IMG/VR virus record: IMGVR_UViG_3300034196_000086
Coordinates: 1 to 31,485 of that record
DNA length: 31,485 bases
Direction: 5' to 3' (one strand)
From: a virus
Shown here one piece after another: positions 7,251 to 30,675 of this stretch. Under the pieces are notes generated by a model. The model was not told where the DNA came from, made no database searches, and was given only the letters and a program-made list of their open reading frames with translations. Made by a program: the position numbers and the translations under genes. Each line of letters starts with the position of its first letter. The first letter of the stretch is position 1.

Positions 7251-10018
7251 GACTGCATCCCCATCTCGATCTCCAGGAGAGCCCCCGTGTTGATCTTACT
7301 GGAGCGCTCGATCTGGTAGATCTGGACGTTCTTCCGACTTCCGGTGGTGCCCTTGCCGAGATCGGCGACCTTCAGGTCGCCTGCGTAGCGGCCGATCCTG
7401 TTCTTCAGCCAGAGCCCCAGAGACTTGACGAACTTGCCTGCATCGTTCCAGGACCCGAACTTTTCGGCCAGATCGCCGGGAAGCATCATCGGATCGATCG
7501 GAGTGCCGATCGGCTTGCCGAAGGAGTTTCCCATGATCTGTGCATAGAGTTCCTTCGACGTGAATGCAGTCTCAGTTCCGAACGAATCTACGATGGCCTC
7601 CAGGAAGATGGCCCATTCCTCATCCTCTGCGCTGCGCTCCTTGCGCTGCTCAGCATTCGAGAAGGTTCCGGGGAAACCAGCGAACTCCAGGATTCCCCGG
7701 ATAGTCTTGACCCATACGGCGTAATCGTCGGAACGCTTGACCTCAGGCATCGGGCGGCCAGCAACTACCCATGCCCTTGCCACAGTCAGCAGGGCCGTGA
7801 TGTATTCGGCGCGATTCTCGCGGGTCCAGAGGATCGGGTGGCACTTGAAGCCAGTCCGGGATTCCGGGTTCGGAACGCGAGGGTCGATGGTGATCCTGAG
7901 AGTACGACGCGCCAGGTCGCCACCGATCTGCGCATTGTTCCCAGTCATGGCCCAGAGCCGATCATTCGGCACCTGCATGAACTGGTCGTTCCTTCCGAGC
8001 GTTCGGTCGGAAACCGTGTCGGTGGTGAGCAGACCTTCAAGAACGGAGGAGTGAATGACGCCACGGACGTTATCGAAGGCGATGATGGGCGCAGTCGTCC
8101 CGGAGAGCATGGTCATGACGACCTTCGACCATTCTTCGTCCTTCGTCGGCATCCCGGGACGCAATGCCACCCCGTGTGCTTCACGGAGCACGCCGAGGAG
8201 GTATCCCTTGCCAGAACCAGGCGAAGGTGCCTCAATGACAGCGAACTGATAGGGAGGCGGCACCATCGGCCTCAGCAGGGGCGTGAAGGCGCATCCAACC
8301 CAGTTAGCCAGGTCGTCCGGCGTAACGAAGGGGAATTCGCTGACGGGGAAGAGAATCAGGTCGCGCGCTGCCTCAACCTGCGCCCGCGTGGGATTTTCGG
8401 GCACAGCGATGGTGCCCATGCCACCTGTAGGCAGATACAGCATCCCGGTGGCTTCATCGTAGCCGGGCCTGTCGAAGATGCTGCCATCGCCCCGCATCAC
8501 CGGGGTATGCGTGATTCCCTGAAGTGTGCGAAGATTCGGCGTATCTCCGACTTCCGAGGAACCGATGCAACGCTGAGCCAGGTCAAGAGGGAGAAGGGTC
8601 CGGCGCCACTGCTTTCCGGTGGCCTTGCCTTCCTTGTCCTTCTTTACCTCAGCCTTACCCACATCGTAACGGGTTTCGATCATAGACACGAGACCATTGA
8701 GGGTAATCGGCCGGACCTGCGCCGGACCATCGTCAGCGCCGGACTCCTTCGGTTCTACGTAACCTTCCTCACCGATCAGGGGGGTATGCACCAGCATGCG
8801 GGAACCGCGCAGGAACAGGCCAGCCAACTGGCCCCTGCCGACTTCTTCGCGAAGCCAGGGCATCGCCGAAGCCTTGTCCCCGACATTGATGCGGAGTACG
8901 CCATCCTTGTTCTTGTCGCCAGTCCGGAAGCCATCGCTTGACTCTGCGGGAGCCTTCTCGATAATCTGGACTTCGGTGGGAGGCGCAGTAGGATCGTAGG
9001 GATCTTCCAGAAGGATTGTCGTCGTCGTTACTCCCCGGTCGGCCCAGCCGTTCTCTTCGTCCCTCTCGCCGAGGCGCTGTTCGTTCCGGGAGAGCCGTTC
9101 CTCGACATTGATCAGGTTCGCCTGCGCTACAGCCCAGGCCAGCGCAGCCTTGAACTCTGACTTCGGGAACCTGCCCCGATCGCGCACAGGATCGAACATC
9201 AGCAGAAAGAATTCGTACATCTCGTCAAGCACGGGCCGGATCTGGTAATATCCGAGCCGTGCCTCACGACATGCCTGAACCAGGTACTTGACGAGGGCTT
9301 CGTGGCGCGAGCCAGAATTCATGGCGCGCTTGAAGCCGGGGTCACGCTCGGAGCCTTCAAGGACAACCTTGGCGAAACCAGGCTTCGTAGCGCTTTCGTT
9401 GTGGTCAGCGATGAACTTCTTCACGACATCATCGGTTGCAGATCCTGCGCCGAGTTCATCGCGATTGACGTTCGGCAGAAGGCCAACCATGAAGTCAGAG
9501 AGCACCGGAATTTCACCGGTGACCATCCACTTGTAACGTCCGCCAGGCTTCGTATGTGCAGAAGGCTCCACGACGATGATCGCGTTCATTCCGCGAATCT
9601 CGCCCCACTTGGAACCAGAAAGCTTCCCCAGTCCATTTCCGAAGACTCGATCTTCGGGGCAGCGATAAACTCGGTGACCACGCAGCCCGACTTCGCGGGT
9701 GCTCTGCCAGGGGCCAGGGTTCTTCTCGAACTCCTCGGCGAGGGCGGCAGGGATCAAATCGTAATCATCGACATCAAAGACGATCAGACCAGAACGGCCG
9801 ACGTGGATACCCAGCAGGTACCTTCCGTCGGAGAACCATTCCTTGATCTGCTCAGGGTCAACACTGGTCTTGGCCTGCCACTTATCCTTCAGAAACTTGG
9901 CAGGACGCTTGGTATCAGGCTCCACCGGGAGGACATAGATGTCCTGCTTGATCAGGAGCAATGCCGCCCCGAGGACGTCATACTCAGCCGGGATCGAAGG
10001 AATCGAACGCGCGCTCAT
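7247..10018 (-). CDS. Prim-Pol primase/polymerase fused to ATPase helicase
   Basis: The N-terminal domain (about 10-200) is a bifunctional primase/polymerase: YVLPVEPDTKRPA, then the metal site IVFDVDDYD (D82, D84), GHRVYR (H115) and a third strand WGEIRG. The middle (about 310-450) is less conserved. The C-terminal ATPase has Walker A PSPGSGKG (598-605), a Walker B-like PIIAFDNV (644-651), sensor LWAMTGNN (689-695) and a basic finger DLARRTLR. This layout is that of phage replicative primase-helicases, which make primers and unwind the fork. A DPYD element (LLEDPYDPTAPP, about 336-347) is shared with two neighbouring proteins. The ATG at 10018 has only a weak GGGA site, but the following residues align with the family's usual N-terminus. 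It is the largest gene of the replication module. Confidence 0.93.
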   Translation of the reverse strand: MSARSIPSIPAEYDVLGAALLLIKQDIYVLPVEPDTKRPAKFLKDKWQAKTSVDPEQIKEWFSDGRYLLGIHVGRSGLIVFDVDDYDLIPAALAEEFEKNPGPWQSTREVGLRGHRVYRCPEDRVFGNGLGKLSGSKWGEIRGMNAIIVVEPSAHTKPGGRYKWMVTGEIPVLSDFMVGLLPNVNRDELGAGSATDDVVKKFIADHNESATKPGFAKVVLEGSERDPGFKRAMNSGSRHEALVKYLVQACREARLGYYQIRPVLDEMYEFFLLMFDPVRDRGRFPKSEFKAALAWAVAQANLINVEERLSRNEQRLGERDEENGWADRGVTTTTILLEDPYDPTAPPTEVQIIEKAPAESSDGFRTGDKNKDGVLRINVGDKASAMPWLREEVGRGQLAGLFLRGSRMLVHTPLIGEEGYVEPKESGADDGPAQVRPITLNGLVSMIETRYDVGKAEVKKDKEGKATGKQWRRTLLPLDLAQRCIGSSEVGDTPNLRTLQGITHTPVMRGDGSIFDRPGYDEATGMLYLPTGGMGTIAVPENPTRAQVEAARDLILFPVSEFPFVTPDDLANWVGCAFTPLLRPMVPPPYQFAVIEAPSPGSGKGYLLGVLREAHGVALRPGMPTKDEEWSKVVMTMLSGTTAPIIAFDNVRGVIHSSVLEGLLTTDTVSDRTLGRNDQFMQVPNDRLWAMTGNNAQIGGDLARRTLRITIDPRVPNPESRTGFKCHPILWTRENRAEYITALLTVARAWVVAGRPMPEVKRSDDYAVWVKTIRGILEFAGFPGTFSNAEQRKERSAEDEEWAIFLEAIVDSFGTETAFTSKELYAQIMGNSFGKPIGTPIDPMMLPGDLAEKFGSWNDAGKFVKSLGLWLKNRIGRYAGDLKVADLGKGTTGSRKNVQIYQIERSSKINTGALLEIEMGMQS

Positions 10019-10056
10019 GCACGGTTCCCGAATGATGCGCTATCGTGATGCACGGT
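10017..10056. repeat. Direct repeat ATGCACGGT before the primase gene
   Basis: ATGCACGGT occurs at 10017-10025 and again at 10048-10056, 31 bases apart, about three helical turns. The first copy overlaps the primase start codon. It could be a binding site, but with two copies chance is possible. Confidence 0.35.
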
Positions 10057-10085
10057 AAGACAACCTCTCTCATCAGCGGTTGCAA

Positions 10086-10118
10086 GAGCCCCCGGACCGA
10101 GGCGACGGCCGGGGGCTC
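10086..10118 (-). terminator. Hairpin terminator after the RHH/membrane peptide pair
   Basis: A perfect 10-bp stem GAGCCCCCGG / CCGGGGGCTC (10086-10095 and 10109-10118) with a 13-base loop lies about 30 bases beyond the stop of the 42-residue gene and before the primase gene. On the minus strand it is followed by TTGCAA. Confidence 0.7.
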
Positions 10119-10145
10119 ACCCGTTCCTCCGGAGGGACCTAGAGA

Positions 10146-10274
10146 TTACCTCCGGTGATGCCTGTCATCGTGGGAAGAATGGCGACTCCTGCCCTCCCCG
10201 ATCAATGGCTGAATAATCAAGTAGTAGATGCCGTGAGCGATGACAATCCCGAAAAGTGCATGAGCGACGGTCAT
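10146..10274 (-). CDS. Membrane peptide, 42 aa, with His/Arg-rich tail
   Basis: This short frame begins at ATG 10274-10272, whose ATGA overlaps the stop of the ribbon-helix-helix gene (10271-10274), and ends at TAA 10148-10146. Residues 3-24 (VAHALFGIVIAHGIYYLIIQ) are one membrane segment. The last 15 residues are unusual: SRHSSHDDRHHRR, rich in His and Arg. The translational coupling to a DNA-binding protein and the hairpin terminator directly after it support that it is a real gene. No family is known to me; a membrane toxin-like or signalling role cannot be told from the sequence. Confidence 0.6.
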   Translation of the reverse strand: MTVAHALFGIVIAHGIYYLIIQPLIGEGRSRHSSHDDRHHRR

Positions 10275-10444
10275 GCTGCCGCTTCCTTCTGTTCCGTGAT
10301 GTAGTTGTCCAATGCACGTCGAAGGATCTCCGCTCGGGAGACTCCGTCCGCCTTCGCCTGTTCGTCAATGAAGGCTCGCTGTTCCGGCGTACCCACGAAG
10401 GGCATCTGCGCCGTGTATCGAGCCTGGATGTACGTATGAGACAC
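10271..10444 (-). CDS. Ribbon-helix-helix DNA-binding regulator, 57 aa
   Basis: The frame starts at GTG 10444-10442 with AAGGA five bases upstream and encodes a 57-residue protein. Its core, MPFVGTPEQRAFIDEQAKA then DGVSRAEILRRALDNYI, is the typical order of a ribbon-helix-helix domain: a beta strand, helix A, a turn with Gly, and helix B starting SRAEILRRAL. Such proteins bind DNA as dimers, inserting the strand in the major groove, usually at repeats near their own promoter. Here the divergent promoter region with two ACTTGTC(A/G)AC repeats one helical turn apart lies just upstream. It overlaps the membrane peptide gene. It is the only recognisable transcription regulator in the window. Confidence 0.8.
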   Translation of the reverse strand: MSHTYIQARYTAQMPFVGTPEQRAFIDEQAKADGVSRAEILRRALDNYITEQKEAAA

Positions 10445-10495
10445 CTGGGTCCTTCCCGGTCCTGACCTGCTCGTTCCCCGCCCATGCGAGGCTAG

Positions 10496-10546
10496 TTGCC
10501 CAGTGTACTAGGCGTCAACTAGACTACTTGTCAACGACTTGTCGAC
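10496..10546. promoter_or_regulatory. Divergent promoter region with ACTTGTCAAC tandem repeat
   Basis: Leftward: TTGACA (minus strand, 10529-10534), an 18-base spacer and TAGTAC (10505-10510) towards the ribbon-helix-helix gene. Rightward: TTGCCC (10496-10501), an 18-base spacer and TAGACT (10520-10525) towards the gene at 10563. ACTTGTCAAC (10526-10535) and ACTTGTCGAC (10537-10546) are spaced 11 bases apart, covering the leftward -35 and the expected rightward transcription start, so one bound protein could control both. Confidence 0.5.
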
Positions 10547-10562
10547 TCAAGGAGAGTAGCAG

Positions 10563-11003
10563 ATGGTCAGGTGGGCGGATGTGGGCGTCGGAGATGTCGT
10601 GATCGGTGCCAAGGACAAGAAGGCCTGGGAGGTGACCAAGAAGGGCCCCGGTGAAGAGGTAACGATCCAGAATGGTGAGCGTTCCTATACCTTTGCTCCT
10701 TCCGGCGAGGTTGAGCGACTTGCCACCGCTTCTGAGATGGTAGCGGCTGCTCAGGCATCTGTCAAGATCGTTATGCCTGGAGCCGTCACGATTGCCGAAC
10801 AGGGGCCGGACAAGGTCTGGGTCTGCCCGAACACGTACCCTGACGCAGGATCGCTGCTTTCGCATCTTTTCGTCATGCATGGCAAGAAGTTGACAGAAAC
10901 TGACCTGATTGGTATGCTCGGTGAACATCGGGCCTGGCACGACAAGCACGACGTGCAGAAGCCCCACATCCACGACAAGGACTTCTGGAGGGACAGGGCG
11001 TGA
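10563..11003 (+). CDS. Hypothetical protein, 146 aa, first gene of rightward operon
   Basis: The ATG at 10563 has a strong AAGGAG site eight bases upstream. The N-terminal 60 residues are a small beta-rich domain (VGVGDVVIGAKDKKAWEV, GEEVTIQNGERSYTF). Around residues 85-110 there is a segment that recalls a C2H2 zinc finger but has only one Cys before the two histidines (VWVCPNTYPDAGSLLSHLF then VMHG), so it is a degenerate finger at best. The C-terminal 35 residues are His/Asp rich (HRAWHDKHDVQKPHIHDKDF). It opens a three-gene operon with overlapping starts and stops, the only rightward genes here. No family recognised. Confidence 0.8.
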   Translation: MVRWADVGVGDVVIGAKDKKAWEVTKKGPGEEVTIQNGERSYTFAPSGEVERLATASEMVAAAQASVKIVMPGAVTIAEQGPDKVWVCPNTYPDAGSLLSHLFVMHGKKLTETDLIGMLGEHRAWHDKHDVQKPHIHDKDFWRDRA

Positions 11004-11936: not shown

Positions 11937-12071
11937 TCAGGCCAGACCGAGCAGTCGTCGACATTCCTTGCAGGTGACGATGTTCCGGTGGAATGAGTAG
12001 ACCTCAGGCTTACTCACGCCACATTCCGTCACGCCACCAACTTCGGTGACGAAATGGATGTTCTGGTTCAC
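11937..12071 (-). CDS. 44-aa Cys-pair microprotein (zinc-ribbon-like)
   Basis: The GTG at 12071-12069 overlaps the stop of the secreted protein gene (GTGA), and the frame ends at TGA 11939-11937, just before the shared terminator. The protein has the pattern TECG ... NIVTCKECRRLLGLA: a first Cys followed by Gly, then 16 residues later a CxxC pair followed by RRLL. His6 and His28 are also available, so a single zinc site is likely. The TxCG...VTCxxCRRLL pattern recurs in short actinophage proteins in my memory, but no function is established. Coupled translation and the terminator behind it support that it is real. Confidence 0.65.
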   Translation of the reverse strand: MNQNIHFVTEVGGVTECGVSKPEVYSFHRNIVTCKECRRLLGLA

Positions 12072-12697
12072 GGAACCGAGATCACCGTGACGGAGAGAGT
12101 GAAGGAATTACTCCCCAGTCCTGTCGCTGCGACCGTAAACTTGCGGTCAGTCGAACCTGCCGCCGCAGCAACCGGCGTGATCGTTACGGTCGAACCGACC
12201 GGGCGAGCCTCGGCGTTATTTCCGGCGTATTCGATGACTCCGGTGGCGAATGCAGGAAGACCACTGACTGTCAGCGTCCCTGAAGTATTCGCCGAAGTCA
12301 GGGCAAGAGTGCCCTTCTTGACGACAACGCCTTCTCCTGCGTCACCCTTCGGTCCCTGCGGACCAACTGCTCCGGTGATTTCAGCGATCGGCCCGAAAGC
12401 CTCCACCAATGTGGTCGGCGTCCAATAACGGTTGCCCTCGCTGTACTCCGGGCACTTTCCGGTATTCTTGTCATACCAGAGGTTCGCATAGGCTCCTGTG
12501 CCGACCTTGACGCAGAGCCCGCGCTTCGTCGTTGAAAGCACGACCGGAGGATAAACCTTCGGGGTCGGGGATGTGGAAGGGGTGACCGTAGCTGCCGCCG
12601 GGGCAGAAACGGCAACCGTTGCAGAAGCGGGAGTAACGAGGAGAGCGCCACCGATCAGCGCTGCTGCGGCACCAGCCGCGAGAACGAACTTCTTCAT
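12068..12697 (-). CDS. Secreted protein with short collagen-like stretch, 209 aa
   Basis: The N-terminus (MKKFVLAAGAAAALIGGALL ... ASA) is a classical Sec signal peptide with cleavage around residue 26. A Thr/Pro/Ser-rich linker (about 35-48) follows, then a domain with two cysteines (RGLCVKVG, TGKCPEY), then a very short collagen-like segment, GAVGPQGPKGDAGEG (four Gly-X-Y triplets, about 109-122). The C-terminal 80 residues are beta-rich (KGTLALTSANTSGTLTVSGL), resembling a jelly-roll or Ig-like fold. The gene follows the holin gene and precedes the microprotein, with an AAGG site seven bases before ATG 12697. It should be exported, so it is probably not a normal virion part; a cell-surface or extracellular role is inferred. 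Confidence 0.75.
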   Translation of the reverse strand: MKKFVLAAGAAAALIGGALLVTPASATVAVSAPAAATVTPSTSPTPKVYPPVVLSTTKRGLCVKVGTGAYANLWYDKNTGKCPEYSEGNRYWTPTTLVEAFGPIAEITGAVGPQGPKGDAGEGVVVKKGTLALTSANTSGTLTVSGLPAFATGVIEYAGNNAEARPVGSTVTITPVAAAAGSTDRKFTVAATGLGSNSFTLSVTVISVP

Positions 12698-16560: not shown

Positions 16561-17645
16561 AGAGCACTCTCCCGTAGCTTGAGACGAATGGTCGAAGTCG
16601 GGCGAAGTGGAACCGTTGCACCAGCGACAACGTAAACTCCGCTAGTCCGGGACCTGCCGTCAACAACCGTTACAGCATCCCCAACATCGTGCCCCGGGTG
16701 ACCAATGGTGTTGATCGTAATCTCCTGGCGCATCTTCGTAACGCGCGGAAGCAACGTAGCGGCAGCGGCATCCGCCTTCCCCTGGGTATCAATCAGAGGG
16801 GAGGAGTATCCATAAGGTCGCTTTCCGAATGGGCCCAGATAGTATGTGGGAGAAAGCGGATCTGTGTCCCAAAGAACGGTACGGATCGGACCGGCCTCGG
16901 GATGTTCTCCGGTGACGACGACTCCACTGTATGTGGTGTCTGCCTTGATTGTTCGGGAGGTGTCGACAAGGAGGGACGACTCGCCGGGGGAGTATGTGAT
17001 TCCGGTCGGGGCTTCGCTGTAGGGCTCGACAACGAGGGTTCCCAACTGGTCGAAGTAAGCCGATAGGTTGTCGGCGGCTGCGAGCTTTCGGACCGCATCC
17101 CATGGATCGGATAGGGCATCGAACACAACCTCCGGAGTAGTGTTCCCAGTCTGGGTAATCCGGACCGGGACCGTCAATCGCGAAGTAACGATATCGGAAA
17201 TCGCTTGCCAAGTCGGAGTCCCGCTTGCAATTGGGTATGCCGCATCAAATCGTCGGACCCGAACAGAGTCGACTCGATCCCAGCCCTTTACCTTGATCTG
17301 CGTTCCGGCGCCATGAGCGGTGACCTCTGGCTCGACGATTCCGAACACACCAAGAGGGACGTACTCATAGGCGCCATCCACCATGAGACCACGGTACAAC
17401 CGCAGTTCGGTGCCCTTCGGGGCGAGGAGGTCCTTGGCACTGGCGGGGGTGAGGATTCCTTCAGGGTCCACAAGCCTGAGGTTGCATGAACGCCTGACAG
17501 CCACGTCATCAATTTCCACGCTCCCGTCAATCACAACATCAAGAGTGGTGACAAGTTCAGTGTTGTAGAGAACTTCGACCTTACTGTTCCACCGACGAGA
17601 GGTCTGGAACAATGCTGCGCTAAATGCTGGAGTCGTGGGCCACAT
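16557..17645 (-). CDS. Minor tail (baseplate hub-like) protein, 362 aa
   Basis: The ATG at 17645 shares its A with the stop of the large tail protein (TGATG), with GAGG seven bases before it; a GTG one codon upstream is possible. The protein is mostly beta and resembles tail hub proteins of actinophages (DUF5047-like in my memory): an N-terminal strand-rich domain (KVEVLYNTELVTTLDVVIDG), then DAAYPIASGTPTWQAISDIV and SYSPGESSLL-like segments in the middle, and a final strand domain (TVVDGRSRTSGVYVVAGATV). It would link the tail tube to fibre proteins. Position between the tail tip protein and the collar fibre supports this; the exact domain name is not certain. Confidence 0.75.
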   Translation of the reverse strand: MWPTTPAFSAALFQTSRRWNSKVEVLYNTELVTTLDVVIDGSVEIDDVAVRRSCNLRLVDPEGILTPASAKDLLAPKGTELRLYRGLMVDGAYEYVPLGVFGIVEPEVTAHGAGTQIKVKGWDRVDSVRVRRFDAAYPIASGTPTWQAISDIVTSRLTVPVRITQTGNTTPEVVFDALSDPWDAVRKLAAADNLSAYFDQLGTLVVEPYSEAPTGITYSPGESSLLVDTSRTIKADTTYSGVVVTGEHPEAGPIRTVLWDTDPLSPTYYLGPFGKRPYGYSSPLIDTQGKADAAAATLLPRVTKMRQEITINTIGHPGHDVGDAVTVVDGRSRTSGVYVVAGATVPLRPTSTIRLKLRESAL

Positions 17646-20600
17646 CACTTCACCTCAACGAAGGAGATGGTGATGGTCCGGTTGACGCGAGCTTCGACTT
17701 CATAGTCACGGGAAAGGAAGCGCACGTAGGTAACCTTACCTGCCGGACTCTGAATGACCAAAGGAACAGTCCTGGTAACGATGTCCTTGATTCGGTCGAT
17801 ATCTGCGGCTGGAACATAAATGGCGATGCTTCCGTCAGGCGACTGCAATGCCTCGACATCTACGACAGCGGCATAGCGTCCGGCGGGACGAAAAACCGTC
17901 GACCCATCTTCGTCATGCACGGAGTACCCAGTGACATATGCGTTGAACTCAGCCTGATCTTCATCCGGGTCACGAATTGACCATAGGAGGGAATCGACGT
18001 GCGCCTCGGCGTAGGGGGAGAAGTCCGAAGTGAGGACTTCGGTTCCGCCGACATCTGCATTGGTAACGGCGCGATACAGGACATCTGAGTTGAAAGGCAT
18101 TGTCCTATCGGAAAGCGTGGCCTGCTGGTAGAAGTCGGGCTTGACCGCATCTGTCAACTCAGTCCAGGAGATCCCGCCATCATCGCTTCGCTCAACATGA
18201 ACCGTCTGAGTCTGCGAATATCCTCCACCCTGCCAATTCGTATCTCGGCCGGGGTGGAACGAAAGCCTTGCAGCGAAGAATGTCTCCGCAGCCGCGGTCG
18301 TTCCCAATACTTCAAGGACGACCCTCGCAAGGACGGCATTATCTGGCGCATCGGCAGTGATGAAGGCCGGAACATAGGATGTCGTACCTGTAACGATCTG
18401 ATCGCCAATCGACTCAGAAATCAGAGTCCCAGTTCCATCGTCATTGTTGTACCAGCGAATCCTGATGCGGGCAGCACGAACTGTCCCACCAGAAGCAGTC
18501 TTGAAAGCCGCGACGGAAGTGTAGGTGTTCCCGCCAATCACGGGAAAACTCAGCGGCCTAGTATAAGCAGGCTGGCCAAGAGGTGCCAGGGGAGGCGAGC
18601 CTGCTGTCGTGCGCGCGCGCATGTCACCAGCCGCAACGCTCACCATCTTCAGCGATGCAACCAACTGATTCGGAGCATCATCAACCTGAGCGAAAAGCGT
18701 GGAGTTCGCATCGTTCTCCCAGTCAGCCTGACCGATGGCCTGATTGGAGGAGAAATAGTTCGACCTCGCCTCCACCAGCAGATTGACCCTGGGGACTCCA
18801 GTCCCCCAATCCTCCTCATCAACCGCCTCCAGGAGCGGACCAGCGGGCGGCTGAAGGCTCAGCGTGAAGTCCGTGTAGCTCCACGGTGAGGCGACGGTGT
18901 TGGCGTCTACAGACTGCACGTAGGCCCTGTAGGCGGTGCCATCCGTGAGGGACGTCCCGATCCGGACGCTACGACCAATCGCGCTGGTAACAACGCCAGA
19001 AGTCCACGTTGAAGGCGAAGGGTTGTTCGGGTCGATCGTAACGCCGAGAGTCGGGACGATACGAACCTCATAAGTCTGCTGCGCAGCGACACTGGTGTAA
19101 TTCCAGGTAACGAGCGGAGTCGAAGACCCATAGGAGATTCCGACTGGCGAAGTGACAACAACCGTAGGCGCAAGCGATGCGGTGACCGTACGGTTCGCGG
19201 CATACGAAGAGTTAGCGCCAGTGCTCGACTTAGTACGAACCGACCAGGAATACGTTGTTCCAGTCGTCCACTTCCCGGACGGGAAAGATACCTGGTATGG
19301 GTTCGTGGTGTCGGTTGTGTTGTAAACCTCGCCAGACTGCCAAGCCTGCGTCGAAACATTCCAATACTCGGTAGTCGGGCCGCCGCCGAACTGACGACGG
19401 AAAGCCCAAGCCTGCTGAGTATCACCAGGAGAAACAGCGTTGTACTGCCACTTGAAGGTGTACCCAGCAGCTAGGTCAACCCGGGCTCCATTGGCAGGAG
19501 AAAGTAGAGTTGGCGTACCTGGAGCACGAGTCAGGGAAAGCAACTGCTGCGACTTGATGGTGTGCGAGGATGTTCCCTCGGACCAGATCATGTCAATGGA
19601 ATCGCGCGGAGGGTGTCGAACTAGCTGAAGATCTCCGTCTTCGGAGTAGGCTGTTCGAGTAACCGCTGTTGTCCAACTCCCCCACGTAGTTGTACCGCGA
19701 GTGAACTTAACGTAGATGATATTTCCATTTGTTCCGCCGTACGCGGCAAGGTAGATATCACCGGTGGTAGGATCACAAGCAAGCGAAATGCCCAGAACGC
19801 TACCCGTTCCTCCAGGCATCGCGGGTGGATTCCTGGTCGTGACTGATCCGGCCGTGCCATCCCACTCTGCGCCCTTCAGCGAAGTGCCATTCGTGGTCCA
19901 CACCATAAAGTCGCGCGAACCATCGTAGACCGAACAGAAGACAGTGTTCGGGACGGTCACGCTAGTTTCGATGGTCAGCGGGCTTCCCCAGGTCCAGTTA
20001 CCCGAAGAGTAGGTCGCCTTGTGGACATAGGTATTTCCACCCGTTGCCGACGAAACGAAGAGATAGACGTGCGGCGAAGCGGATGGAGTCTTGCCATCTC
20101 CAGTGTGTGCGAACTCGATGGACTTTACCTGGAAAGCCTCGAATCCAGAGGCGGGACCATGAGCCGTCGAATCAACGGTAATGCTTCCGCTCGCCGCGAC
20201 GGAAAGCTTGGAAACTCGGGCGCCATTGGCTCCGGAGTCATATGTCCAGGTAACCCAGACAACCCAGCCAGTTCCGTTACGAAAGGCGACAATGTCGGAG
20301 TCAACGCCAACCCGGCCACCCGCAGGTGAAATCGCCTTGGTAGTCCAGGACCATCCTCCACCCGTACGCGGGACTCCGCGCGCATACATGACGATCTGCG
20401 GGTTCTTATCCCACTGGACGAAGGAAACGTGGGCATATCCGTCAGCATCGATGAAGAACGATGGGACCGCAGTCCCCTGCCCTAGATCTAGGTCACTTCC
20501 GGCAGAGATCGCCCAAGTGTTCCCGCCATCGCCGGAGGAGAAAAACCTGGCCCTTCCTGTGTCAACGAGCAATGCCCAGAGTGTTCCGTCTGGGGAGACA

Positions 20601-20671
20601 TCCAAACGCTTCTCGGGAGAACCGGAGAGCGAATCTCCGTGTGGTAGCCCCGATGTGATGACGGTTGCCAC
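17645..20671 (-). CDS. Large minor tail protein with Asp-box propeller and Fn3-like domains
   Basis: A GTG at 20671 with AGGAGG four bases upstream starts this 1008-residue protein. The first 380 residues look like a beta-propeller with sialidase/BNR-type Asp boxes: FSSGDGGNTW (about 45-54) and later repeats such as YDGSRDFMVWTT. Residues about 385-630 contain Fn3-like units (GTPTLLSPANGARVDL, WSVRTKSSTG, APTVVVTSPVGISYGSSTP). The C-terminal part has a carbohydrate-binding-like segment (YTRPLSFPVIGGNTYTSVAA) and a tail-attachment-like region at the end (VRFLSRDYEVEARVNRTI). It is probably a tail-tip or receptor-binding protein. Sugar binding is inferred from domain types; no catalytic site is clear. 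Confidence 0.8.
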   Translation of the reverse strand: MATVITSGLPHGDSLSGSPEKRLDVSPDGTLWALLVDTGRARFFSSGDGGNTWAISAGSDLDLGQGTAVPSFFIDADGYAHVSFVQWDKNPQIVMYARGVPRTGGGWSWTTKAISPAGGRVGVDSDIVAFRNGTGWVVWVTWTYDSGANGARVSKLSVAASGSITVDSTAHGPASGFEAFQVKSIEFAHTGDGKTPSASPHVYLFVSSATGGNTYVHKATYSSGNWTWGSPLTIETSVTVPNTVFCSVYDGSRDFMVWTTNGTSLKGAEWDGTAGSVTTRNPPAMPGGTGSVLGISLACDPTTGDIYLAAYGGTNGNIIYVKFTRGTTTWGSWTTAVTRTAYSEDGDLQLVRHPPRDSIDMIWSEGTSSHTIKSQQLLSLTRAPGTPTLLSPANGARVDLAAGYTFKWQYNAVSPGDTQQAWAFRRQFGGGPTTEYWNVSTQAWQSGEVYNTTDTTNPYQVSFPSGKWTTGTTYSWSVRTKSSTGANSSYAANRTVTASLAPTVVVTSPVGISYGSSTPLVTWNYTSVAAQQTYEVRIVPTLGVTIDPNNPSPSTWTSGVVTSAIGRSVRIGTSLTDGTAYRAYVQSVDANTVASPWSYTDFTLSLQPPAGPLLEAVDEEDWGTGVPRVNLLVEARSNYFSSNQAIGQADWENDANSTLFAQVDDAPNQLVASLKMVSVAAGDMRARTTAGSPPLAPLGQPAYTRPLSFPVIGGNTYTSVAAFKTASGGTVRAARIRIRWYNNDDGTGTLISESIGDQIVTGTTSYVPAFITADAPDNAVLARVVLEVLGTTAAAETFFAARLSFHPGRDTNWQGGGYSQTQTVHVERSDDGGISWTELTDAVKPDFYQQATLSDRTMPFNSDVLYRAVTNADVGGTEVLTSDFSPYAEAHVDSLLWSIRDPDEDQAEFNAYVTGYSVHDEDGSTVFRPAGRYAAVVDVEALQSPDGSIAIYVPAADIDRIKDIVTRTVPLVIQSPAGKVTYVRFLSRDYEVEARVNRTITISFVEVK

Positions 20672-24705: not shown

Positions 24706-25161
24706 TCAAACGGCGGTCGTCAGATTCGACAGAACATAGACCTTCGCCATCTTTCCGGAGTTCCTTGCCTTCCGAATGGTCTGCCAGGTACCGGAGCGAG
24801 TGGACTTCGGATGAGATTCACGTTCGCGCGGGAAGGCGACAAGACTGTCACTGTTCTCGACGATCTCATAATTTCTCTGGGCGTAAGAAGTGCCCGGAGG
24901 CATGAAGTGAACTTCGACTCTCTTCTGAAGCAACATCATGTCGATGAAGCGCATGTTCACTCGACTGCGATCCGCAGGAACGAAAATCTTCTGAGTCATG
25001 TTCGGACGGTGGTGCAGAAACCAGACGGCGATAAATTCGTCGATTCCGATGCAGGCACCAGTCACCACCGCATCGCCATACAGCGAATGCAGAATCCTTT
25101 CTACGCTGACTTCTTCTTCTTCGGAGAGGTCTCGGGAGCCAGAAAATCCGATGGTTCGCAT
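24706..25161 (-). CDS. SLOG-family Rossmann protein (DprA/YpsA-like), 151 aa
   Basis: The N-terminus IGFSGSRDLSEEEE is the Gly-rich nucleotide loop of SLOG proteins, followed by VVTGACIGIDEFIAV (residues 32-46) in the position of the VTGGAxGID motif, a phosphate-binding RNYEIVENSDSLVAFP (96-111), and the final SGTWQTIRKARNSGKM (about 122-137) where the family has Gly-Thr-x-x-Thr-Ile and an Arg/Lys helix. SLOG domains bind nucleotide-like ligands and appear in DprA, in stress and in anti-phage defence (ThsA-type) proteins. This gene is a cargo insert: it has a hairpin before it, a -10 box five bases before its ATG (leaderless) and sits inside the tail operon between the major tail protein and chaperones. 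The ligand is unknown. Confidence 0.8.
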   Translation of the reverse strand: MRTIGFSGSRDLSEEEEVSVERILHSLYGDAVVTGACIGIDEFIAVWFLHHRPNMTQKIFVPADRSRVNMRFIDMMLLQKRVEVHFMPPGTSYAQRNYEIVENSDSLVAFPRERESHPKSTRSGTWQTIRKARNSGKMAKVYVLSNLTTAV

Positions 25162-25231: not shown

Positions 25232-26233
25232 TCAGAGAGTGGCAGTTGTCGTGATAACCTCAGCGTGGAAAGCCTTGGCCCAGGTTGCGTCGACCGTGTT
25301 CCCGAAGGTCCATTCGATGGCGTAAACACCATCCTCGTCCGAGAACTCACCGACATCGGAGATCTGGCCTGCGCAGTCCAGCGTGAACTTGTGCTTGACC
25401 GTAACGCCGCCCGTGTAGATCGTCGGCCCAACAGCCTCCATGCGGAGGAACTTCGTCGTACCCGCCCGCATCGCGGTTAGGTTCGCCATACCTTCGGCAT
25501 CGGCCTCCTGCATGATGGTGAACTGCGCAGTCGGCTCAGTTTCGACGGTAGTCACGAACGAAGGTAGGGATGCGTCGACAACCCAAAGGGGACCGAAGCG
25601 GGACGACAATTCGAAGGAACCCGAAAGCGCGCGGGTCATCTTCGTAGTCCCCAGCGCCGCCGCGGAGTTGTCCAGGTAGAAGGTAACTTCGGTCGGCCGG
25701 ACCGGAACCTGAGGAAGCATCGTCGGCGCTGCCGTCAACGTCACTCCGTCCTCAAGGGCACGAGCGATAGCCGTGCCTTCGAGCGTGACCTCTTCGCGGG
25801 AGAAGTTGATAGTAAGGTCAGAGATGATGACGTTGGTAGCCCTGTGCGCCCGCACCGAGGAGCCCTGCTCGACCGTGAAGGTCTTCGGGGTGTCAGCACC
25901 GAAGGCGTTCGAATCGAAGACCCACTTCCGTCCAAGTGTGTCAGTCGAAGCATCCATGACGTTTGTGACAGTTCCTGTGCTCATCAGGGACGAGAGCACG
26001 TAAGGCAGTTCGGTGTAGGCCGGAGCCCCTTCTAGGGAAGCTTCAGACCATTCCTTGCCTAGGATCTGAAGGTTCGCGTACTTCTGACCGATGGGACGCT
26101 GGGAGTTGGTTTCAACCTTCGGTGCAAGATTGAAACCAATCGAACCTAGACGCCTCGGTGCGGCGACGGCGGTACCCGGGGTCGTTTCGACACCGATCTG
26201 AACCGCCTGGGAAATGGTGCTGCGCTCCGCCAC
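25232..26233 (-). CDS. Major tail protein
   Basis: The GTG at 26233 has GAGGAG seven bases upstream. The 333-residue protein has the features of siphovirus tail tube proteins: the start ISQAVQIGVETTPGTAVAA followed by RRLGSIGFNLAPKVE, a long beta-rich core, and GVTVKHKFTLDCAGQISDVG then EFSDEDGVYAIEWTFGN near the end. Tube proteins form hexameric rings that stack into the tail. Position upstream of the chaperone and tape measure genes agrees. A strong terminator follows, so the tail tube gene can be expressed at a higher level than its downstream neighbours. Confidence 0.92.
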   Translation of the reverse strand: MAERSTISQAVQIGVETTPGTAVAAPRRLGSIGFNLAPKVETNSQRPIGQKYANLQILGKEWSEASLEGAPAYTELPYVLSSLMSTGTVTNVMDASTDTLGRKWVFDSNAFGADTPKTFTVEQGSSVRAHRATNVIISDLTINFSREEVTLEGTAIARALEDGVTLTAAPTMLPQVPVRPTEVTFYLDNSAAALGTTKMTRALSGSFELSSRFGPLWVVDASLPSFVTTVETEPTAQFTIMQEADAEGMANLTAMRAGTTKFLRMEAVGPTIYTGGVTVKHKFTLDCAGQISDVGEFSDEDGVYAIEWTFGNTVDATWAKAFHAEVITTTATL

Positions 26234-26303
26234 GGCGGGGCTCCTCTCGCTGTCGAATCTGACCCCGGGCCCTATTCTGCCAGGCTCCGGGAGTACCTAT
26301 CTG

Positions 26304-28073
26304 TTACTGACCCCAGACCAGGGACACGTACTTTGCTGCGGTTGCAGGCTGATTGCCCTCCGGGCCGTAAAGCGCGAAGCGCGGCCACAGATTGAACTGG
26401 ACATCGTAAAGAAGTTCGCCTGGCCCAGTTCCAGCGTGCGCGCGGAAGTAGCGGTTCATCTGCTCAACATATGCAGGAGATTCGCCCCCTCCACCGGCGC
26501 ACTGGGAAGCGATTCCACAGTTGCCCCACTCGCCAACCGACAGGGGCACGCCCTGCGCTTCAGCAAACTTCCGGTGGGATTCAATGCTATCCGGGTTGGT
26601 CGTGTCGTTCAGGGAAGCCCAGACGGCAGCCGCATCGGTCCGGTGCGGATACTGGTTGTAAGTGTCTAGGCAGTAGACATCGACGACCTTGCGGTCCAGC
26701 CCGTCAGTCTTGACGAACAAGTTCTCGGGATTCGCTGCGCCAACCGAAGAGCCATCGTTCGGACAGAGGACGACCTGAGGCGCATTGGTGTCGCTGAAGG
26801 TGCTGTAGCGCAGCGAAGAGAAGCGAGCGATGGCGTTACGGAAGTTGGCTTCCTGCCCGGTCGGAACATTCCATTCCGTCCAGTTGCCATTCATCTCGTG
26901 CGCGAAGCGGATGTAGACCTTCTTCGGGTCCATTCCATTGGCGGCAAGCTTTCCCTTCAGGGCCGTCAGCATCGACTGCCACTGGACATTGTAAGCACCG
27001 GCCGCAGCATTCGCCCAGGACTGTCCGCTCCAGATCGCACCGACTGCAATGTCCAGAGAAATATTCGGGCCGGTCACTCCGGCCATGTCTCCAGTGGTTC
27101 CGAAGGAACATGCACTTGCGGAGCAATCCTGGCTGTCCGACCAAGTTCCGACGATCTTAACCGGTTCGCCGCGCCAGGTCCCGAAGGTTCCGTTCGCTGC
27201 GTAGATCGAAGATGCCCCGGAGAGCCACGTAGCGGCCCCTGTGGGGCTCGGAGATGGCGAAGTGGTGCTAGGAGACGGAGAGGGGCTTTCCGTGGTTGGA
27301 GACGGCGACGTAGGGCTCGTAGAAGGGCTCTCCGTCGTCACCGTCGGCGTCGCGGTCACCGTAGGGGTAACCGTGACGGTCGGAGTGATAGTAACGGCCG
27401 GTGCAGTCACTGTCACGGTCGGAACGCCAGGAGTCACCGTAACTGCGGGAGCAGTCGACGTAACGGCAGGAGCCGTCACGGTTGGCGTAACCGTTACCGT
27501 TGCGGTCGGGCTTCCAGGAACCGACGTCGAAGGTGAAGGTGAAGGCCCGCCGATGTCGCCAGCCACAATGTTCGTCATCTTCACGCCAGCGCTGGACTGC
27601 CAGACGACGGGAACAACTCCGCGACCCGTGTAGGTCCCAGGAACAGTGCGCTGAGCGATCTGCGCACCATTCCAGAAGATCGTCAGCAGATTGGCGCTGT
27701 CGATGGTGACCTTGAGATTTCCGCTCGCGGTACGAGCAGAGTTGCCAGCAAGGTAGCTTCCGGCCGAAGGTTCTGTCTTCCAGGCTGTTGCGGAGACCGC
27801 AACAAGGATATTGCTGGTCGCGCTGTAGCGCAGGCGGAATCCTGCATTATGATCCTGGTCGGTGAGTCCGGAGATATCCGCCTGAGCAAACTGTCCAGCA
27901 GTGTCAGTGTTGCCAAGACTTGCGTCATTGACCCAAGTCCAAGCGGTCGCCGGTGCATACTGCGCGCGAGTGAAGCTAGCCGCCGACGCGGAGACCGCAG
28001 TAACCCCCGCCACGGCGAGGCACGCAGCGAGCGCGGCGCCCAGCCACGCTGCCATAGTCTTTCGTGGTGTCAT
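26304..28073 (-). CDS. Secreted GH26-like glycoside hydrolase with LamG-like domain
   Basis: Residues 1-31 are a Sec signal peptide (basic start, hydrophobic core, AxA end). Residues about 33-174 are a beta-rich domain resembling LamG/concanavalin or carbohydrate-binding folds. Residues about 176-280 are a Thr/Pro/Ser/Val linker of TVTVTPTVT-type repeats then SPSPSP repeats, typical of secreted actinobacterial enzymes. Residues about 282-589 match a GH26-like (beta-mannanase/endoglucanase) catalytic domain: IRFAHEMNGNWTEW holds the acid/base Glu393, and LSVGEWGNCG holds the nucleophile Glu515. The exact substrate cannot be read. It starts with GAGGATCACG before ATG 28073 right after the tail terminator gene, so it is co-transcribed with structural genes although it should be exported. 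Probably a moron. Confidence 0.85.
   Translation of the reverse strand: MTPRKTMAAWLGAALAACLAVAGVTAVSASAASFTRAQYAPATAWTWVNDASLGNTDTAGQFAQADISGLTDQDHNAGFRLRYSATSNILVAVSATAWKTEPSAGSYLAGNSARTASGNLKVTIDSANLLTIFWNGAQIAQRTVPGTYTGRGVVPVVWQSSAGVKMTNIVAGDIGGPSPSPSTSVPGSPTATVTVTPTVTAPAVTSTAPAVTVTPGVPTVTVTAPAVTITPTVTVTPTVTATPTVTTESPSTSPTSPSPTTESPSPSPSTTSPSPSPTGAATWLSGASSIYAANGTFGTWRGEPVKIVGTWSDSQDCSASACSFGTTGDMAGVTGPNISLDIAVGAIWSGQSWANAAAGAYNVQWQSMLTALKGKLAANGMDPKKVYIRFAHEMNGNWTEWNVPTGQEANFRNAIARFSSLRYSTFSDTNAPQVVLCPNDGSSVGAANPENLFVKTDGLDRKVVDVYCLDTYNQYPHRTDAAAVWASLNDTTNPDSIESHRKFAEAQGVPLSVGEWGNCGIASQCAGGGGESPAYVEQMNRYFRAHAGTGPGELLYDVQFNLWPRFALYGPEGNQPATAAKYVSLVWGQ
27230..27545. repeat. Tandem TVT/SPSP repeat coding region in the hydrolase linker
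   Basis: Short, imperfect repeats (units like ACGGTCGGAGT and CCGTAACG) make the low-complexity linker of the hydrolase. It is a coding repeat, not a CRISPR array: units are degenerate and there are no unique spacers. Such stretches tend to expand and contract. Confidence 0.55.
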
Positions 28074-28081
28074 CGTGATCC

Positions 28082-28504
28082 TCAGTTAGAGGCTGCCCGA
28101 AGCCGGTAATTCGCTCCGACATGCATGTACTGCACGCCGTCGATGGTCTCCGGGTAATGAAAAACAGTGTCTCGGACGCAGGTGATGCTTCCGTTCGCTG
28201 TCGTTGCGAACTTTCCGTGCAGGACAGATTCAAGAGCCCTCATCACAGCCCGGCCAGGGACGAATGAGTTCGAGCGATGAACCGCCTTGATCCCATATAG
28301 ATTGTCCGTGTCAAACCTCGTTGCGCCAACTCCTCGGATATCCCTTGTGGAGATGTGCCCGACTAGCACGTATGGAGGTTCAGTTACTTCCGTGGTCTGT
28401 CCATTGATTACTCGGGTTACGAGTTCCGTGGGCAGAACTGCATCCTTGATCACCTGAATTAGCCAGGGCTCAAGGACATCTAGCGTTTCGTATCCAGTTG
28501 TCAT
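28082..28504 (-). CDS. Tail terminator protein (DUF3168-like), 140 aa
   Basis: The ATG at 28504 overlaps the stop of the neck gene (ATGA). The sequence pattern, an N-terminal helix (LDVLEPWLIQVIKDAVL), strands with VLVGHISTRDI, a helix with RAVMRALESVLHG and a final strand pair (DGVQYMHVGANYRLR), is that of tail terminator or tail completion proteins, which cap the tail tube and join it to the neck. It is placed between the neck and the major tail protein as in other siphoviruses. The inserted hydrolase separates it from the tube gene. Confidence 0.8.
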   Translation of the reverse strand: MTTGYETLDVLEPWLIQVIKDAVLPTELVTRVINGQTTEVTEPPYVLVGHISTRDIRGVGATRFDTDNLYGIKAVHRSNSFVPGRAVMRALESVLHGKFATTANGSITCVRDTVFHYPETIDGVQYMHVGANYRLRAASN

Positions 28505-29640: not shown

Positions 29641-30675
29641 TCAACCCCTTCGTGCTCGCATGCGGACAGCGCCAGCCTTTTCGACCGTCACCTTAACAAT
29701 ACCTGGTCGGCCGAAGACACGACCCGCGAAAGTCGCCGCCACAGTTCCGGCCGTAGTGATCGAGCCGACGAACTTCCTAACGAAAGCCTTCCGAAATACG
29801 CCACTGCCCGTAACTGCGCCAGTTAATGTCTTCGGCGTGCGCTTGTACTGATCGCCGAACGCAGTAGAAGATCCAGTCAGGACCTTCTGACCAATCTTCT
29901 TGAAAGGACCATTACTGGTGATAGATCCGGTAAAGACCCGAGTGACGACCTTAATGTAGGACCAGAGACCAGTCGCGGTCACCGAACCTGTAAATGGATT
30001 CTTTGTTACCAGATTTCGACTAAAAGTTCCCGCCGTCGGCGTGCATGAGCCAGTGTAGGTAAACTGGTTATCCGTGCCATCCGTCAACTTCACGTCATCG
30101 AAGTCGGCGATCATTCCCGCAGCGCCACCGTTGTTGGCGATGAGGATAGTTAGCCCGGAACCTGTGTGCGTAGAGTCAGTCGTGCTGACCTGATACGAAC
30201 CTGGCTCTGCGCCGGATGTCGCCCAGACCTTGGCCTTGATCGTCGTGCCGACGGCATAAAGCCGGAAACCATACTCAGTGTTCTGAGCAATGTTGAATCC
30301 GGTAACAGTTGCAATCGTTGGGTAGGTAAATCCAGAACCCTTCGACAAGGTAACAGCGCTTCCCAGGCGGAAGGTAAGGAAGTAGCCGTTTCCATTGTCG
30401 GGAGTGACATTGTCAGCCCTGACCCAAACTTCGACACCACTGTTATTCGTGGTAGTTAGGACAAGCTTTCCGGAAATCTCGACGTCGGTAAGATTGCTTC
30501 CGGAGTAACGCTGGGCGCGCTTATTCGATGGGCCACTCGAAGATCCACCATTCAGGCGGCCCTTGTTGCTCTGAATAGTCGCCGAAGCGCCGGTCGACGA
30601 AACGAAGCTAGTCCAGTTGCCAGACCAGGCTGCGCCATTCGAACCGGTGAAGTCGTCCAGGAAATACGTAACCAT
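29641..30675 (-). CDS. LamG-like protein with five 18-residue TGS repeats, 344 aa
   Basis: The N-terminal 210 residues look like a LamG/concanavalin domain (FLDDFTGSNGAAWSGNW, VEVWVRADNVT, GMIADFDDVKLTDG), usually a sugar- or protein-binding sandwich. The C-terminal part, about residues 225-315, is a tandem repeat: PFTGSVTATGLWSYIK, VFTGSITSNGPFKKIG, VLTGSSTAFGDQYKR, TLTGAVTGSGVFRKA and KFVGSITTAGTVAAT, each about 18-20 residues and with the core (F/L)TGS(V/I)T. The end is basic (GRPGIVKVTVEKAGAVRM). It sits between a capsid-region protein and the connectors, so it may be a head fibre or decoration; receptor or sugar binding is inferred. Confidence 0.75.
   Translation of the reverse strand: MVTYFLDDFTGSNGAAWSGNWTSFVSSTGASATIQSNKGRLNGGSSSGPSNKRAQRYSGSNLTDVEISGKLVLTTTNNSGVEVWVRADNVTPDNGNGYFLTFRLGSAVTLSKGSGFTYPTIATVTGFNIAQNTEYGFRLYAVGTTIKAKVWATSGAEPGSYQVSTTDSTHTGSGLTILIANNGGAAGMIADFDDVKLTDGTDNQFTYTGSCTPTAGTFSRNLVTKNPFTGSVTATGLWSYIKVVTRVFTGSITSNGPFKKIGQKVLTGSSTAFGDQYKRTPKTLTGAVTGSGVFRKAFVRKFVGSITTAGTVAATFAGRVFGRPGIVKVTVEKAGAVRMRARRG

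Follow-up and report, generated by a model that had tools for sequence, protein, structure and literature searches.

The gene at 26304–28073 of a 31,485-base IMG/VR virus contig with tail, lysis and replication genes (the whole stretch of which is referred to here as the window) is predicted to encode an exported glycosidase of the GH26 type, and it is embedded in the tail operon. We give about an even chance to the product being a late-made, Sec-exported, non-virion GH26-type endoglycosidase that cuts host exopolysaccharide before or at lysis. The open reading frame had been noted in a sequence-only reading of this DNA that gave no strand; it is borne out here and lies on the minus strand, and its reported place between a tail terminator and a major tail protein is upheld as well, both neighbors being candidates for these functions. 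The product contains, in order, a signal, an N-terminal domain (approximately residues 34–173), a linker (approximately 174–280) and a catalytic domain (281–589). Two uncultivated phage contigs, L002 and L003, carry the gene in the same slot, with 59–60% identity in the catalytic domain; conservation of this degree, together with two glutamates that are invariant among 28 relatives, would not be seen in a chance open reading frame. The features are as follows.

26304–28073, minus strand: GH26-type glycosidase gene, predicted exported; a 589-codon open reading frame (589 aa) with syntenic relatives and a ribosome-binding-site-like sequence.
27978–28073, minus strand: export-type signal, residues 1–32, MTPRKTMAAWLGAALAACLAVAGVTAVSASAAS, with a basic n-region, hydrophobic core and small-residue end.
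27555–27974, minus strand: N-terminal domain, residues 34–173, no family assigned; 64% identical in L002.
27234–27554, minus strand: linker rich in Thr, Pro, Ser and Val, residues 174–280, with VTVTPT-type repeats in the sequence.
26307–27233, minus strand: GH26-type catalytic domain, residues 281–589, assigned from a family profile, Pfam matches of relatives, AlphaFold2 and Foldseek.
26895–26897, minus strand: codon of Glu393, the predicted acid/base (HEMNG), aligning with the HEANGDW Glu of CtLic26A.
26529–26531, minus strand: codon of Glu515, the predicted nucleophile (VGEWG), aligning with the AEF Glu of CtLic26A.
28082–28504, minus strand: tail-terminator candidate, the upstream neighbor, with a weak PF11367 match; same neighbor in L002 and L003.
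25232–26233, minus strand: major-tail-protein candidate, the downstream neighbor, with 72% identity to its L002 counterpart and 63% to that of L003.
26234–26303, minus strand: 70-bp leader ahead of the major tail protein, with the motif TGGCAGAAT at 26274; the L002 and L003 leaders are of approximately this length too.

The catalytic domain is recognized through intermediate sequences. Single-sequence searches with it return nothing usable from Pfam, NCBIfam, PHROGs, the PDB or phage genomes, and residues 281–589 alone do not match PF02156 (GH26), the best Pfam hit being to a GH5 cellulase at a sub-threshold E of 0.018. Relatives were collected from L002 and L003, from three other phage records whose copies are closer (L005, L058 and L059), from one whose copy is distant (L006) and from many bacterial loci, and a profile was built from a 28-row alignment of phage and bacterial catalytic-domain relatives. 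First, this profile matches the GH26 lichenase CtLic26A across the entire domain (E 3.6e-20), followed by GH26 mannanases and xylanases. Second, PF02156 is matched by 24 of the 28 relatives, and several full-length relatives exceed its cut-off. Third, an AlphaFold2 model of the catalytic domain computed on the 28-row alignment (pLDDT 92.9, pTM 0.92) has eight strands in barrel order; for the entire protein, modeled from two sequences only, the pLDDT is 38.9. Fourth, the 13 top Foldseek matches in the PDB are all GH26 enzymes, led by CtLic26A, AlXyn26A and CjMan26 enzymes with E-values down to 2.2e-12, while predicted viral structures give only weaker matches, to other glycosidases (best 5e-6, 11% identity). 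Finally, both of the catalytic glutamates reported previously, in HEMNG and VGEWG, are present and invariant in all 28 alignment rows; E393 (E113 of the domain) lies just past strand 4 of the model and E515 (E235 of the domain) on strand 7, which is the clan GH-A arrangement. The sequence-only reading had asked for a structure prediction, and the clan-A barrel on which its assignment depended is what the prediction yields. The intermediate sequences and the predicted fold together argue strongly for a GH26-type domain, such that the earlier GH26-like description holds by way of the relatives' profile and the predicted fold and does not hold as a detection from the window sequence alone. Retaining endoglycosidase activity would be expected of a GH26 member.

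The best match in both profile and fold is Lic26A of Clostridium thermocellum (Endoglucanase H, a GH26 lichenase; PDB 2bv9, 2bvd, 2vi0, 2cip and 2cit), in which both glutamates occur in the same motifs. However, it is only about 14% identical, and it is not phage-borne but a plant-glycan enzyme that a cellulolytic bacterium secretes. Because the nearest characterized relative is a lichenase of such low identity, the substrate of the phage enzyme is unreadable from sequence. The GH26 enzymes characterized to date comprise mannanases, lichenases and xylanases, and the gene could be read as an auxiliary metabolic gene whose exported product digests glycan from plants, algae or fungi (lichenan, mannan or xylan) around the infected cell and feeds that cell in infection or lysogeny. 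Soil viral glycosidases have been interpreted in this manner, including 14 virus-encoded glycosidases in a permafrost study, one of which, a GH5 endomannanase, was shown to be active (PMC6786970); GH26 mannanase calls have been listed for mangrove viromes (PMC6460857), and the structure of a GH75-type viral chitosanase from soil has been solved (PMC9485262). Neither PMC6786970 nor PMC9485262 mentions signal peptides. The window gene resembles these soil viral hydrolases in that they too are glycosidase genes on uncultivated phage contigs, GH26 included, although they are different enzymes and are read as carbon-degradation genes. We consider a metabolic role of this kind unlikely for the window gene: it is grouped with late tail genes, at a stage when feeding the host gains little, and in the loci inspected its nearest relatives from cells belong to clusters for exopolysaccharide synthesis and are not beside sugar uptake genes.

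The N-terminus of the protein carries a pair of basic residues, then a hydrophobic core (Kyte-Doolittle maximum of 2.28 over 15 residues) and SASAAS. The n-region, core and small-residue cleavage region of the Sec signal claimed previously are thus all present, and the glycosidase is predicted from them to be exported. All five distinct phage proteins examined (window, L002, L003, L005 and L058) keep this basic-hydrophobic-small pattern, with the sequence diverged; the N-terminus of L005 could alternatively be a membrane anchor. The remaining head-tail genes of the operon all stay below a Kyte-Doolittle level of 2.28, whereas lysis-region proteins and a few small open reading frames of the window reach it. 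A ribosome-binding-site-like GAGGA/GGAG lies upstream of the ATG in the window, L002 and L003 (three of three), and since it precedes the matching start in both syntenic relatives, the signal-bearing start is likely the true one. A second export-type protein (209 aa, MKKFVLAAGAAAALIGGALLVTPASA...) is encoded at 12068–12697 (minus strand), after the CHAP endolysin gene; it includes a short collagen-like GPQGPKGDAG stretch and has no match in Pfam, PHROG or phage records.

Such an export-type N-terminus would be superfluous in a virion protein whose assembly takes place in the cytoplasm. This bears on the possibility that the enzyme is a virion-borne depolymerase, a structural tail component like tail spikes, with its hydrophobic N-terminus serving for attachment or unused as a signal. 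The location of the gene among virion genes leaves room for such a role, and it lies between two tail genes in three phages. Moreover, the 159-kb phage record L006 encodes at 8693–10822, among apparent virion genes, a protein of 709 aa that has a distant GH26-type domain as its C-terminal part and no obvious signal, and it is possible that this protein is a virion-borne counterpart. Nonetheless, we regard a structural role for the window protein as distinctly unlikely, as its N-terminal pattern persists across diverged sequences and is unlike other head-tail genes, its N-domain is dispensable in L003, relatives located at unrelated genomic positions in other phages retain the signal, and most related phages have a complete tail module but do not have the gene.

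The N-domain, of 140 residues, is missing from the L003 protein. It has no Pfam match, and sequence and profile searches find relatives of it in L002 only. It had been described as LamG-like, which receives no support from Pfam, PDB-sequence or profile comparisons; this judgment is made at the level of sequence and does not exclude the fold. Beyond L002, the only match is a weak one to a GH11 xylanase (E 0.026). A surface- or glycan-binding role for the domain is plausible. Grouping the N-domain and the N-terminal part of the protein at 29641–30675 as a single lectin-like module was also considered and rejected, as the profiles are unrelated, a weak negative given two sequences in each. The linker, at residues 174–280 or thereabouts, agrees with the Thr/Pro/Ser repeat linker described previously and contains a short imperfect 21-bp tandem repeat at 27432–27479.

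The window, L002 and L003 share the order of tail-terminator candidate, 8–10 bp, glycosidase gene, approximately 70 bp, and major-tail-protein candidate. In the window the glycosidase gene starts 8 bp past the tail-terminator candidate, which has a Pfam match below the cut-off to Tail_completion_gp17 (PF11367; E 0.0065), and the major-tail-protein candidate begins 70 bp downstream; the latter is without any family match and is named from its size, position and synteny. L002 is 59% identical across the entire protein and L003 60% in the catalytic domain. The gene has no match in 50,697 phage records, as might be expected of host DNA or a chimeric assembly, but we find an artefact of this type barely credible and have dropped it, as it is refuted by the synteny: the same slot is occupied in three divergent contigs from different datasets. 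The gene also has a third-position G+C (GC3) of 0.67–0.70, inside the range of the window, and its catalytic domain has a pN/pS of 0.39–0.42, indicating purifying selection with synonymous sites near saturation.

The sequence-only reading suggested that related phages be compared for presence or absence of the gene, and the 51 fetched loci whose major-tail-protein candidate is related comprise two that encode the catalytic domain and 49 that do not. Five of the nearest non-carrier records, searched in their entirety, have no such domain, bearing in mind that virus records can be fragments. The gap ahead of the major tail protein is already approximately 60–66 bp in L009–L012, and the simplest history is therefore that the gene was inserted after the terminator, ahead of a leader that was already there. 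Between the window and L003 the catalytic domain is still 60% identical, while the tail terminators are down to 36%. A scan for sigma-70-type promoters and for terminators reveals no convincing promoter or terminator of the gene's own and no sign of a separate transcription unit. The proposal that the gene is a moron from an actinobacterium is consequently half retained: kinship to actinobacterial enzymes is evident, but the gene occupies the same slot across three divergent phages, is phage-like in composition and is under purifying selection, all of which speaks against a recent moron. Rather, it is a long-resident gene under purifying selection, yet a lineage-specific insertion.

In a tree of the catalytic domain the window, L002 and L003 form a clade (support 100/99), and the six phage rows are never one group in 200 bootstrap trees (0/200). 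With long branches, the number of gains by phages is uncertain. L005 and L058 are other phage types in which relatives with an export-type signal lie outside the tail-terminator/major-tail-protein slot; the L005 gene is placed after the endolysin and that of L058 between portal and fibre genes, and because these positions are unrelated, more than one gain is favored. The tail-terminator/major-tail-protein junction takes other insertions too, as L024 has a 124-aa open reading frame resembling a LAGLIDADG homing endonuclease from −367 to +7 of the major-tail-protein start.

The leader contains the motif TGGCA(G/C)A(A/C/G)T, which occurs once in the window, 30–55 nt upstream of the major-tail-protein start, and in the same place in three related phages (at 8955 in L002, 10964 in L003 and 9949 in L009). 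In the window and L002 a hairpin is predicted whose loop region contains the motif; in the window this hairpin is not clearly stabler than shuffled sequences. The window (24706–25161, minus strand) and L002 (10088–10531) also share a conserved small protein, of weak DprA/Rossmann-like similarity, whose gene separates that of the major tail protein from the following tail gene. A 1008-aa minor-tail candidate at 17645–20671 (minus strand) matches PF25788 (E 4.7e-7), the Rha78A N-terminal immunoglobulin-like domain, which takes its name from an alpha-rhamnosidase.

Among cellular proteins, the nearest relatives are GH26 proteins of a surface type from Geodermatophilaceae, Kineosporiales and myxobacteria. 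Close relatives are found in Blastococcus, Geodermatophilus, Trujillonella, Goekera, Quadrisphaera, Kineococcus, a genome labeled Streptomyces sp. NP160, and myxobacteria, and there is a strong match in 14 of 99 sampled Geodermatophilus-family genomes, often with two to four copies each. Proteins of the Geodermatophilaceae, Kineosporiales and Myxococcaceae loci (L060–L078) have 35–42% domain identity and, like the phage protein, are of an exported or surface type with an N-terminal module and a low-complexity linker; unlike the phage gene, theirs are chromosomal, lie inside Wzx/Wzy-type clusters and have CWB2 cell-wall-binding or malectin modules at the N-terminus. Within the fetched stretches, Wzy-like and Wzx-like genes are each present in 13 of 20 close-relative loci and in none of 58 remote GH26-type loci, a contrast that is indicative only and not a formal test, as some loci overlap one another and the taxa represented in the two sets are not the same. 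The names Wzx and Wzy are given from mutual similarity and context, and neighboring Wzz, sugar transferase, polysaccharide synthesis and glycosyltransferase genes are confirmed by Pfam. Glycosidases inside exopolysaccharide clusters are a described pattern (PMC9075953). At 57% G+C, the window falls well short of the 74% seen in two of the closest cellular loci, so the phage host may not be among these bacteria, and no relatives of the major-tail-protein candidate are found in the 395 bacterial genomes of the class that were searched.

The exopolysaccharide clusters in which the cellular relatives sit make a role at the cell surface likelier. The suggested surface-glycan target thereby gains ground, although in place of the broad list of glycans offered previously the host exopolysaccharide is the likelier target. 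We propose that the late operon would make the glycosidase along with the head and tail proteins, and that the host Sec pathway would export it, such that it would act outside the membrane and not as part of the virion. It would then cut the host's own exopolysaccharide, with the infected cell and its neighbors losing their coat before or at lysis, and progeny would be freed from slime and kept from sticking to debris. In this scheme the export itself, the substrate, the timing and the benefit are inferred. The same evidence for export and a surface target would equally fit an enzyme that strips a phage-bound surface glycan, so that progeny and rivals do not adsorb to a dying or lysogenic cell; but binding of exopolysaccharide by these phages is without support, and exclusion of this kind, which is inseparable by sequence from removal of the exopolysaccharide at lysis, seems to us more doubtful than even a structural role. 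As for the digestion of host matrix more broadly, we suggest only tentatively that several phage lineages have separately recruited a GH26 enzyme of the kind that actinobacterial exopolysaccharide loci encode, kept its Sec signal, and dissolve the host matrix with it as a non-virion enzyme before or at lysis, unlike virion-bound depolymerases.

Phage attack on slime or capsule is known mainly through particle-carried enzymes. Virion-bound depolymerases such as tail spikes act on host surface polysaccharide, but are part of the particle, lack a signal peptide and usually have beta-helix folds; the window enzyme resembles them in its proposed target and differs in having an export-type signal. 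Viral glycosidases, GH26 included, are already known, and what differs here is an export-type signal on a tail-operon gene across divergent phages, together with kinship to exopolysaccharide-locus enzymes. Searches of an open-access library found no paper on an exported phage GH26. If the proposal is correct, phages would turn the matrix-editing tools of the host against it by means of an enzyme exported by the infected cell itself. This would also offer an alternative reading for some metagenomic glycosidases filed as carbon-cycling genes, for which simple markers to seek would be an export signal and a relationship to the enzymes of exopolysaccharide loci.
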